Positions 44,377 through 47,039 of a DNA stretch of 64,000 bases are shown one piece after another. Position 1 is the first letter of the stretch; every line of letters begins with the position of its first letter. Made by a program: the position numbers and the translations under genes. Source of the stretch: Glutamicibacter sp. B1. Lineage in GTDB: Bacteria > Actinomycetota > Actinomycetes > Actinomycetales > Micrococcaceae. The stretch lies in assembly GCF_039602135.1 (NCBI RefSeq), contig NZ_CP125942.1, forward strand, positions 1,054,001 through 1,118,000. The letters are read 5' to 3'. The notes under the pieces were generated by a model that saw only the letters and a program-made list of their open reading frames with translations, ran no database searches and was not told the origin of the DNA.

Positions 44377-44392
44377 TCTAAGACGTAAAAAC

Positions 44393-44427
44393 TGCAGTCA
44401 TCTTGTTCAATGAACAAGATGACTGCA
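44393..44427. terminator. Bidirectional terminator after dapF
   Basis: A 17-bp inverted repeat TGCAGTCATCTTGTTCA (44393-44409/44411-44427), nearly continuous, flanked by AAAA upstream and TTTT downstream, between convergent genes. Confidence 0.9.
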
Positions 44428-44444
44428 ACGTTTTAATGGTTGTC

Positions 44445-45050
44445 CTAAGCTGGACGGGAAACTTTTAATACTCGGAAGGCCTTGGCCGTGGCTTCACGGG
44501 TGACTGACCAGGTGGCAGGAAGCTGCTCGATGAGCCACTTCTGCAGAGAATCACTTCCCAGATTCTTCTGTACGACTAACCAAGCATCTCCACCGGCAGC
44601 CAAGCGCGGTAGCCAGAGCATCAGCAGTTCGTGTAGTGCTTCTTTTCCGATGCGGATCGGTGGGTTGGACCAGATCGTATCAAACTCAAGCGTCGGATCC
44701 ACAGATTCAGGGGTTCCGACCACCACGTTGCTCAATGACAACTGTTGGGCGTTTAGTCGTGTTAGTTCAATCGAACGCTCGTTCACGTCTACGCCATACA
44801 CGGTAGATTCCGGTGACTGTTCAGCAGCGGTCAGCGTGATAGGTCCCCAGCCGCAACCGATGTCCAGTACGCGGCCGCGGGGCGCTGGAACGTACTGCAA
44901 CAACACTGCGGTGCCCTTATCTAAACCAGCAGGCGAGAAGATGCCTGCGGCAGTTTGAACCTTGCGCACCTTGCCGTTGAGTTCGACTTCAATGGTGCGT
45001 CGCTCATCAGCGGAGGCAGGGGTGGCCGTGAAGTAGTGATCCGAGGTCAT
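44445..45050 (-). CDS. Class I SAM-dependent methyltransferase (RsmC-like domain)
   Basis: 201 residues from ATG 45050; an in-frame TTG two codons earlier is less likely. SAM-binding motif I is VLDIGCGWGPITLTAA (about 63-78), motif II VYGVDVNERSIELTRLN, and the N6-type NPPI motif is in WSNPPIRIGKEALHELL. This is the catalytic half of RsmC/RlmG-like rRNA guanine methyltransferases without the N-terminal pseudodomain. The target is probably RNA but unproven. It is convergent with dapF. Confidence 0.88.
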   Translation of the reverse strand: MTSDHYFTATPASADERRTIEVELNGKVRKVQTAAGIFSPAGLDKGTAVLLQYVPAPRGRVLDIGCGWGPITLTAAEQSPESTVYGVDVNERSIELTRLNAQQLSLSNVVVGTPESVDPTLEFDTIWSNPPIRIGKEALHELLMLWLPRLAAGGDAWLVVQKNLGSDSLQKWLIEQLPATWSVTREATAKAFRVLKVSRPA

Positions 45051-45470
45051 AGCCAAAGTTTATCCTTGTGTATCCCGAGGCCAAAGACCAGCGCAATCAA
45101 CGTGAGCAAAGCTATATAGGCAACCGGAACAATGACTGATAGAGTTTTCTCTATGACTTTCGTTTTCGTCTAATACGTAACCGCAGTGGTTACCTCGCGA
45201 TCAGATATATCCACGCGTGCTTTTCGAGCGCGCGGATATTGAAATCAGCAGGCAGCAAAGTCATTTTTTTGTTTTCCGCACGTTGTGTATCACACACCTG
45301 CCATTCGCCTTTGCTCCTTGGTAACCGCGCATTCACCTGCCTCACTAATGTTTCGAGTGCTCTGAAAAGGACCGCGAATGTTTGATGAACCGACTGAATC
45401 CTCACGCGCCACGTCGCGAAGTGGGGGTCACCCGCACTATTCTGGAATGCGAAGTACTTCTAAGGAGACC
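45051..45470 (+). promoter_or_regulatory. hflX leader region with candidate ribosome-mediated attenuator
   Basis: A 420-base spacer. A six-codon ORF (45153-45173, MTFVFV then TAA) begins with ATGACTTT, which is exactly complementary to AAAGTCAT at 45257-45264. Between them are two hairpins, GTAACC/GGTTAC (45177-45182/45188-45193) and an 11-bp stem (45207-45217/45229-45239) with one mismatch. Seven T's (45264-45270) follow the closing arm. A TATATA-like -10 lies at about 45113-45118. An AAAGGA-ATG at 45366-45380 offers a second in-frame hflX start. Confidence 0.6.
45153..45173 (+). CDS. Putative six-residue leader peptide upstream of hflX
   Basis: ATG-ACT-TTC-GTT-TTC-GTC-TAA. Too short for standard detection and with only a weak purine-rich site (GATAGAG) upstream, but its first eight bases form one strand of the stem that precedes a T run. 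That makes it a candidate regulatory uORF. Confidence 0.4.
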   Translation: MTFVFV

Positions 45471-47039
45471 ATGACTAACTCCGAGTCACACGAGCACGAT
45501 TCGGCATCAATGGATGATGCCCAGATCCAGGCCGCCATCGACCGGATCCTCGAAGCCGACGATGCCCAGAGCCCACAAGTCCAACACTTCGGCGAAGAAG
45601 AAAACTCAATCTTCTCCGGACAGGCCACTGCGCTCAATCGCTTTTCGTCAGGCTTAAGCCAATATGACGGGGACCAAGACGACCTCGCCGAGCGTCGCGC
45701 CTTGCGCCGTGTAGCTGGCCTGTCCACTGAGCTCGAAGACGTTACCGAAGTCGAGTATCGCCAGCTTCGCCTTGAGCGAGTTGTCTTGGCTGGTATTTGG
45801 AGCGAGGGAACCGTCAACGACGCCGAAAATTCCTTACGTGAACTTGCGGCTCTAGCTGAGACCGCAGGTTCCGAAGTTTTGGACGGGGTCGTCCAACGAC
45901 GCAGTAAGCCGGATCCTTCGACGTTCCTCGGCTCAGGCAAGGCTGAGGAACTGCGCGGAATTGTGGCATCTACCGGCGCCGATACCGTGGTGGTTGACGC
46001 CGAACTGGCTCCTTCGCAGCGCCGTGCGCTCGAAGACATCGTGAAGGTCAAGGTTATTGACCGCACCAGCTTGATCTTGGACATCTTTGCACAACACGCG
46101 AAGTCCCGAGAAGGTAAAGCACAGGTCGAACTGGCTCAGCTGGAATACCTTTTGCCACGACTTCGCGGTTGGGGTGAATCCATGTCGCGTCAGGCTGGTG
46201 GTCGTGTAGGTGCGGCCGGTGGCGGTATCGGCTCCCGTGGTCCTGGTGAAACCAAGATCGAAATGGACCGTCGTCGTATTCGTGACCGCATGGCGAAACT
46301 ACGTCGTGAGATCAAAGCGATGAAACCTGCACGTGAAGCCAAACGAGCGAACCGAAAGCGCAATGAAGTTCCGGCAGTAGCAATCGCTGGGTACACGAAC
46401 GCTGGAAAGTCTTCGTTGCTCAATCGCCTGACTAACGCCGGCGTCCTGGTTGAGAACGCACTGTTCGCCACCCTGGATCCGACCGTACGCCAGTCTGCGA
46501 CCGAAGACGGACTGACTTACACACTGGCCGATACTGTGGGGTTCGTATCGAACCTGCCTACACAGTTGGTCGAGGCCTTCCGTTCGACTTTGGAAGAAAT
46601 CGCGGATTCAGATCTGATCTTGCATGTTGTTGATGCTTCACACCCTGACCCGGAAGGACAGATCCAGGCTGTTCGTACGGTCCTTGGAGAAGTTGATGCG
46701 TTGAATATTCCGGAAATCATCGTCCTAAATAAGGCTGATGTTGCTGATCCGTTTGTTATTGAACGAATCAGAAACCGTGAATCGAACACTTCGGTTGTTT
46801 CGGCTCACACCGGCGAGGGCATTGACCAGCTCCTAGAAAAGATCAGCACCTCAATCCCGCGTCCCGGTATCCAGCTTGAAGTTCTTATTCCTTACGAGCG
46901 TGGGGATCTGATTGCTAAGTTGCACCAGAGTGAGTCCGAAATCTTGGAAAGCGAACACCTAGAAAATGGCACGCGGATGATCGTGAAGGTACGAGATTCC
47001 CTCGCTGCAGAGTTGGAGACTTTCAACATTCATGGATAA
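45471..47039 (+). CDS. hflX: Ribosome-associated GTPase HflX
   Basis: 522 residues from ATG 45471, which has AAGGAG seven bases upstream; an in-frame ATG at 45378 with AAAGGA is an alternative. The HflX N-terminal domain includes VVQRRSKPDPSTFLGSGKAEEL, and the glycine-rich linker GGRVGAAGGGIGSRGPGETKIEMDRR precedes the GTPase. G1 is GYTNAGKSS (about 306), G3 DTVGF, G4 NKAD. HflX rescues stalled or antibiotic-blocked ribosomes. The start of the helicase gene overlaps its end by 8 bases. Confidence 0.96.
   Translation: MTNSESHEHDSASMDDAQIQAAIDRILEADDAQSPQVQHFGEEENSIFSGQATALNRFSSGLSQYDGDQDDLAERRALRRVAGLSTELEDVTEVEYRQLRLERVVLAGIWSEGTVNDAENSLRELAALAETAGSEVLDGVVQRRSKPDPSTFLGSGKAEELRGIVASTGADTVVVDAELAPSQRRALEDIVKVKVIDRTSLILDIFAQHAKSREGKAQVELAQLEYLLPRLRGWGESMSRQAGGRVGAAGGGIGSRGPGETKIEMDRRRIRDRMAKLRREIKAMKPAREAKRANRKRNEVPAVAIAGYTNAGKSSLLNRLTNAGVLVENALFATLDPTVRQSATEDGLTYTLADTVGFVSNLPTQLVEAFRSTLEEIADSDLILHVVDASHPDPEGQIQAVRTVLGEVDALNIPEIIVLNKADVADPFVIERIRNRESNTSVVSAHTGEGIDQLLEKISTSIPRPGIQLEVLIPYERGDLIAKLHQSESEILESEHLENGTRMIVKVRDSLAAELETFNIHG

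Follow-up and report, generated by a model that had tools for sequence, protein, structure and literature searches.

HflX is a ribosome-rescue protein that splits stalled ribosomes, and a very short reading frame upstream of its gene raises the question of whether a ribosome could control hflX from within the leader of the same message. The initial annotation of the window (the whole stretch of 64,000 nucleotides analysed here) read this leader as a ribosome-mediated attenuator, and comparison with related genomes, together with RNA folding models, supports that interpretation. The comparison across genomes makes the case far stronger than the single sequence alone, and is strong evidence that the leader is a real, conserved, two-state element.

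The family sample comprised 197 genomes with hflX, from which 110 upstream regions were read (12 from the genus of the window, here g1, and 98 from 19 other genera). These cover 20 of 32 genera, with g2, g3, g4, g6, g9, g12, g13, g15, g16, g17, g22 and g25 left out. Within g1, six further genomes were added to the 12, giving n = 18. The HflX of the window shares 96% identity with the G. nicotianae NBRC 14234 protein, and the features of the locus are collected in the table below.

Features of the hflX leader, in positions of the window
Feature	Positions	Strand	Basis or remark
Conserved CAACGTGAGCAAAGCTATATAGGCA-type block	45099..45122	+	Alignment of 18 congeners; about -54 to -31 of the presumed transcription start
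Weak -35, TAGGCA, within the CAACGTGAGCAAAGCTATATAGGCA-type block	45117-45122	+
Extended -10 element TGATAGAGT	45137..45145	+	Congener alignment; 7 nt before the mini-ORF ATG
Mini-ORF MTFVFV-TAA, six codons, probably leaderless	45153..45173	+	Congener comparison, 18/18; 5' strand of P0 (45153-45160 and 45168-45171)
P1 strand A, GTAACC	45177..45182	+
Strand B, GGTTACC	45188..45194	+	Partner of A (P1) or of C
Hairpin P2	45207..45239	+	Sequence variable
Anti-ORF strand of P0	45250..45264	+	AGGC 45250-45253, AAAGTCAT 45257-45264
T7 run after P0	45264..45270	+	Candidate termination or pause site
CTTTGC	45309..45314	+	Alternative partner of GCAAAG (45255-45260, in the anti-ORF strand)
Strand C, GGTAACC	45320..45326	+	Alternative partner of strand B
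Upstream in-frame hflX start (ATG 45378) with Shine-Dalgarno AAAAGGA	45365..45380	+
TATTCT	45438..45443	+	Conserved; possible internal -10 for a shorter HflX
hflX	45378..47039	+	TIGR03156, 440 bits (cut-off 216.75); Pfam domains; usual start 45471, AAGGAG 45462-45467

The mini-ORF and its presumed promoter

In the window, 45153-45173 translates to MTFVFV-stop. Conservation of this ORF in relatives had been put forward as a check on the attenuator interpretation, and a six-codon ORF indeed stands upstream of hflX in all 18 genomes of g1, with its ATG, frame and stop kept in every one. The encoded peptides are MTFVFV (7), MTLIFV (5), MTFIFV (2), MTLFFV (2), MTLIYS (1) and MILIFV (1), and the best-conserved stretch in the alignment of the 18 congeners is CTGATAGAGTTTTCyCTATGACTTTsrTTTTCGTCTAA. 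When whole genomes were searched for a -10 element followed by seven bases and a hydrophobic six-codon ORF, each of the 18 gave one match, at the hflX leader, whereas the backward control of the same pattern matched in 1 of 18. The share of synonymous changes among single-step codon variants of the mini-ORF (2/5 in g1, 0.16 expected) rests on too few cases to decide. A longer ORF from the ATG at 45132 was rejected, that ATG being present in only 4 of 18 congeners.

Only 7 nt separate the extended -10 element from the ATG, so that the mini-ORF is probably leaderless, with transcription expected to start at the A of its own start codon. The spacing between the -10 and the ATG, at 6-7 nt, is kept across genera while the intervening sequence changes. 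A leaderless ORF needs no ribosome-binding site, and the poor ribosome site that the initial annotation had listed as a weak point of the ORF is thus probably no weakness, given this -10 geometry. A generic promoter scan of the window listed nothing at the mini-ORF promoter. The CAACGTGAGCAAAGC-ATAT block at 45099-45122, kept in most congeners, may be an activator site or an unusual -35, and a further partial match to the promoter block, with 3 mismatches, occurs elsewhere in the window's genome. A hairpin ATAGAG/CTCTAT over the -10 region was discarded, CTCTAT being kept in only 4/18 congeners.

Two neighbouring features are recorded here in their own right. At 45050-45090, the minus-strand methyltransferase gene (MTS domain) has a conserved, -10-like GATAAACTTTG just before its start, which gives it the look of a leaderless gene. 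Between the convergent dapF (+) and methyltransferase (-) genes, 44391-44429 holds a near-perfect stem of 16-18 pairs, likely a two-way terminator.

Outside g1, a -10/ATG mini-ORF was found upstream of hflX in 61 of the 98 regions. It is present in g10 (11/11, mostly MFLIFE), g23 (11/11; MTYL, MTFL, MTLIFL, MTYPYL), g7 (9/9; MRLFK, MFLFK, MLLFD and others), g20 (4/4; MLSFL, MLIFL), g11 (3/3; MTYLFFV), g27 (2/2; MILTQRVYTRIRFVG, MILTQRVLIRIRFVG) and g8 (8/10; MWNK, MANK, MTNK, MKK and a bare start-stop), as well as in g21, g26 and g28 (4/5 each) and g29 (1/1). It is absent from the regions of g31 (8), g32 (11), g24 (4), g18 (3), g14 (2), g5 (2), g19 (1) and g30 (1); g31 and g32 have short upstream regions in the alignments shown. 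The start-stop case belongs to one g8 genome (L185, G184), whose mini-ORF is ATG-TGA and whose close relatives encode MWNK.

Outside the genus, 63 of 176 regions carry a strict form of the pattern (extended -10, at most 8 codons), a count that includes at least two leaders twice (L036 = G124, L025 = G101, L019 = G054). Shuffles gave an expectation of 0.4, and the reverse strand held no strict hit. Among the 176 are 78 additional loci with 15 strict hits, kept from a set of 80 from which L001 and L002, duplicates of G013 and G007, were removed. Among L038-L080, mostly from other families, the mini-ORF was found in 0/43. One further locus (L012, WNZI01000016.1), titled Vibrio cholerae strain 35D, carries an hflX 72% identical to that of the window, within the Arthrobacter range, and is probably mislabelled or contaminated.

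For duplex energies, swaps, codon variants and peptide statistics, a looser set was used (loose -10 pattern, ATG starts, ORFs below 18 codons, 13 loci added to g10). In this set, MFLIFE is kept in 18/24 g10 leaders despite codon differences at three positions; the synonymous share of single-step codon variants (4/10, 0.17 expected) again comes from too few to decide.

Pairing between the ORF and the downstream arm

The first eight bases of the ORF, ATGACTTT (45153-45160), are exactly complementary to AAAGTCAT (45257-45264), as first described, and the closed branched structure with two hairpins inside is recovered by an RNA fold of 45153-45272 (-35.8 kcal/mol, z -2.75). Taken alone, the duplex between the ORF and the downstream strand in the window is at chance level (z -0.15, p 0.44). 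Single-sequence duplex energies were accordingly set aside as proof of the closing stem P0, their mean z being -2.0 in g1 but, for most other groups, either between about 0 and -0.9 or above zero.

Covariation of the two arms, the second check that had been suggested, also came out in favour. In the alignment of 18 leaders, P0 and P1 together reach 94.8% pairing, and three of their pairs have changed on both sides; the informative species are G004 (ATGACTCTG with CAGAGTCAT) and G003 (ATGATCCTG with CAGGGTTTT). No shuffle in 500 equalled the observed paired percentage or covariation score; 3 of 500 had as many two-sided pair changes and 169 of 500 as many pair types, and slid versions of the pairing fell to 21-61% paired. 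Leaders swapped between congeners paired more weakly with the ORF than did their own partners (P 0.0002 in g1). Both shuffles and swaps ignore relatedness among the leaders, so that these significance values are optimistic. The outermost two P0 pairs are poorly kept in this alignment, the second being unpaired in 9/18 and the first gapped in 17/18. RNAalifold recovers P0 unprompted and adds a pairing of the ORF end (45168-45171) with 45250-45253, so that the start and the end of the ORF both belong to a single P0 strand. We judge the pairing to be more than chance from the conservation of the ORF in 18/18, the two-sided changes in P0 and the swap test, not from the duplex in the window.

In g10, the ORF end and the downstream strand also seem, by eye, to co-vary (TCCAAGT/ACTTGGA, TTCGAGT/ACTCGAA), with a swap P of 0.017. 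For g28, with 4 leaders, the same test returned P 0.04; it did not reach significance in g7, g8, g20, g21, g23 and g26 and was uninformative in g11.

These results bear on the simplest alternative, namely that only a promoter is conserved here and that the ORF and pairings are incidental. The conserved block does include the extended -10 element, and single-sequence pairing is not significant. Yet such a reading sits poorly with an ATG, frame and stop kept in 18/18, with one match per genome, with other genera that keep the layout of -10, ATG and short ORF in a different sequence, with the excess of strict hits (63/176 against 0.4) and with P0 changes on both sides, and we regard it as very improbable.

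Possible termination, the alternative fold and the hflX starts

The anti-ORF arm had been described as running into seven T. This stands for the window, where the run is T45264-45270 and its first T is the last base of the stem, but only 14 of 18 congeners have a U-rich tract (at least 5 of 8) at this place. Mean U-richness after the P0 arm in the genus is 5.28 of 8 against a background of 2.17, and intrinsic termination after P0 is plausible within the genus on this sequence evidence. In g23, ATGACTT and AAGTCAT are kept in 11/11 leaders as read by eye, and just 1/11 has at least 5 U; for G197, the arm taken in this count was the adjacent AAAGTC, not AAGTCAT.

The weak tract in g23 would suit a version in which the same ribosome-sensing leader works through Rho-dependent termination, in a tnaC-like manner. 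Here, untranslated C-rich RNA after the mini-ORF would load Rho unless a stalled ribosome or an alternative structure hides the RNA, and P0 would mainly re-close the start codon. C exceeds G by 0.07-0.15 in the leaders of all 12 genera with the ORF, which is also in keeping with Rho; upstream of those promoters the difference is -0.07 to 0.02, and three genera that lack the ORF show -0.03 to 0.05. However, a surplus of C relative to G is weak evidence for Rho sites, and the enrichment of U after P0 within the genus speaks against this version. We hold the Rho version to be less likely, though a serious rival.

When the leader of the window is extended to 45345 it folds differently (-51.7 kcal/mol, z -2.39): GGTTACC (45188) moves from P1 to GGTAACC (45320), and GCAAAG moves from P0 to CTTTGC (45309). 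The strands of this second fold are conserved in the congeners, without an excess of covariation. The pairing of GGTTACC with GGTAACC is a possible antiterminator; it was overlooked in the initial annotation, as were the probable leaderless start, the pairing of the ORF end in P0 and the upstream hflX start. In these models the two structures are mutually exclusive, P0 being backed by two-sided changes and the alternative by conservation alone.

Ensemble folding gave P0 a probability of at least 0.86 in 18/18 transcripts cut just after the P0 arm. For the full-length leader of the window in the absence of a ribosome, P0 fell to 0 and the alternative rose to 1.0. This counts against the attenuator reading, as does the lack of the T run in some relatives. 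The off state would therefore have to be set kinetically, during RNA synthesis; P0 would have to form first and the alternative later, in a co-transcriptional decision. Probabilities of the alternative helix cover 17 species (G003 is without a value), and in full-length leaders the second fold is dominant (at least 0.75) in 7/17, with P0 ahead in most others. When nt 1-31 were blocked to mimic a ribosome sitting on the stop codon, the alternative formed in 17/17, with probabilities of 0.51-1.0. The models thus reproduce the logic originally proposed, that a ribosome on the ORF breaks the closing stem. The modelled footprint agrees with the msrDL toeprint at +31 to +33 given in the available part of that report (PMC10314930).

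The position of the switch relative to hflX needs correction. The T run was first placed about 200 bases before hflX, but an upstream in-frame start at 45378, present at the matching place in 18/18 congeners, puts 45270 at about 107 nt before the first possible start. This second start, with its Shine-Dalgarno sequence, is found in g1 (18/18), g23 (11/11), g10 (11/11), g7 (8/9) and g8 (8/10), and in 0/11, 1/8 and 0/4 regions of g32, g31 and g24, genera without the leader. The link is imperfect, since g11, g20, g21 and g27 carry the mini-ORF without the second start. Between the two starts, a conserved ACTATTCT resembles an internal -10 in g1, g23, g10 and g7 and is absent in g8; the form ACTAT[TC]CT occurs at a fixed distance in g1 (18/18), g23 (11/11), g10 (10/11), g7 (8/9) and g21 (5/5). 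The attenuated message may therefore encode a longer HflX, with a shorter form made from an internal promoter. For the 31-residue extension, codon-position statistics gave no clear third-position excess as a mark of coding constraint.

The signal, the proposed mechanism and known systems

The leader peptides are hydrophobic, the mean share after Met being 0.65 across 43 genus-peptide combinations against 0.24 in 119 other short ORFs of the same regions. Of 39 peptides with 4-7 residues, 22 have Leu or Ile at position 3, against 7% in the comparison, and M-x-L-I-F-x-stop accounts for 25 of 92 leaders (6 in g1, 18 in g10, 1 in g23); the peptide of the window, MTFVFV, does not fit it, having F3 and V4. 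The g7 peptide MRLFK resembles MRLFV, which we take to be a selected erythromycin resistance peptide. Arg-Leu-Arg occurs in none of the 43 combinations, and two leaders of g27 have RIR, in keeping with the +X+ motif for macrolides reported in the available text (PMC10314930).

According to the same partial source, MsrDL (MYLIFM) arrests ribosomes at its stop codon with erythromycin and azithromycin, Ala at L3 or I4 abolishes induction and position 2 is tolerant (PMC10314930). HflX, for its part, is described in the excerpts at hand as a macrolide and lincosamide resistance factor in Listeria (PMC6310831) and in mycobacteria (PMC12493154). By this analogy, a macrolide-type signal is our best guess for the hflX leader.

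Not all leaders fit a drug sensor equally well. The g8 peptides are non-hydrophobic (MANK, MKK, start-stop), which suggests that something other than the peptide is sensed there. The leader might respond to ribosomes in general, through 70S initiation on its leaderless start or through starvation for Phe, Leu, Ile or Val, rather than to a drug; the range of peptides from hydrophobic to MANK, MKK and start-stop would favour this, as would the binding of 70S particles by leaderless starts, stated in the accessible part of one source (PMC9031893). Against it stand the retention of MFLIFE in 18/24 g10 leaders with codons differing at three positions and the hydrophobic share itself, as well as the fact that HflX is not a biosynthetic enzyme. 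We consider general ribosome sensing improbable.

A related and, in our estimate, rather unlikely idea is that what the hflX leaders of the Micrococcaceae detect is intact or idle 70S ribosomes, just what HflX splits. If leaderless starts bind 70S directly, 70S abundance would set the occupancy of the mini-ORF and with it hflX output, HflX would feed back by removing 70S, and the peptide would add drug specificity only, which would explain a range from MFLIFE and MRLFK to MANK and start-stop. Were this so, the leaders would form a natural, diversified library of macrolide-type mini-genes.

The reading we prefer, with a probability of roughly 0.56, remains a ribosome-mediated attenuator of hflX, composed of a leaderless six-codon ORF, a stop or pause at P0, and readthrough when a macrolide holds the ribosome. 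Transcription would start at the ATG of the ORF, as the -10 geometry suggests. By default, the ribosome would finish and leave, the ORF would pair with the anti-ORF strand to form P0, closing P1 and P2 within it, and transcription would stop or pause at the U-rich tract. A ribosome held at the last codon or the stop codon would, most likely, owe its arrest to a macrolide that acts on the hydrophobic hexapeptide as it does on MsrDL, and would cover the ORF and P1 strand A. With P0 blocked, strand B would be free to pair with GGTAACC, the polymerase would read into hflX and the HflX produced would split stalled ribosomes.

So far, hflX attenuators are known in Firmicutes, and hflX has been reported as a WhiB7 target in M. 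abscessus. If the attenuator reading is true, an actinobacterial family controls hflX in cis through probably leaderless ORFs of few codons, and the sensor ORF, beginning at what is presumably base one of the mRNA, itself supplies one strand of the switch. The peptides would be natural likenesses of macrolide-sensing leaders and of laboratory-selected resistance peptides, and would offer an existing set of natural variants with which to ask what very short peptides arrest ribosomes. A search of the open-licence PMC literature found no paper that connects hflX with a cis leader of leaderless or actinobacterial type, and an Rfam search with E up to 5 gave one chance-level match (E 1.4), inside the coding region.

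Several known systems share parts of this layout. Laboratory-selected erythromycin resistance mini-genes encode peptides of 4-6 residues in which Leu is common, in the available account (PMC2928234), with Leu or Ile at position 3 as here, according to the part of the MsrDL report at hand (PMC10314930). Those peptides act by drug ejection, whereas the ORF described here is part of the hflX leader.

The window's genome holds three WhiB proteins, and none of them has the RGRP ending that we take to be the AT-hook of WhiB7; two are ordinary and the third is a divergent WhiB-like protein (L273, G000:C1:1221000-1222000, 44.5 bits). Leaders of WhiB7 resemble the hflX leader as actinobacterial uORFs and, in the excerpt available, combine a uORF with a terminator and an antiterminator (PMC10727445). 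The same excerpt has M. abscessus hflX controlled via the WhiB7 protein, whereas here the element sits on hflX itself (PMC10727445). Mycobacterial leaderless short-ORF attenuators, likewise actinobacterial uORFs, are represented by Cys-rich upstream small ORFs for which a role in attenuation has been proposed, as far as the partial text describes them (PMC4633059).

Close likenesses are also Listeria rli80-hflXr (lmo0762) and the related uORFC-6-1 motif of Bacillales; in the parts of the reports available, an hflX gene is likewise preceded by a uORF and by RNA structures that exclude one another (PMC6310831; PMC8632094). As described there, rli80 encodes a 14-residue peptide with RLR and uses an intrinsic terminator; the actinobacterial ORF has six residues without RLR and is apparently leaderless. 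Lacking RLR, the hflX leader is not a member of the rli80/uORFC-6-1 type. MsrDL is also a hexapeptide, and its critical residues L3 and I4, as identified in the accessible text, recur in the M-x-L-I-F-x-stop leaders (PMC10314930). It differs in that msrD is an ABC-F gene, in the F3 and V4 of the window peptide and in its start, the available portion of the report describing MsrDL without mention of a leaderless one (PMC10314930). On the best reading of these analogies, the hflX leader is probably macrolide-sensing and works like rli80-hflXr and MsrDL, from both of which it differs in being apparently leaderless and in using the sensor ORF itself as a strand of the long-range stem.
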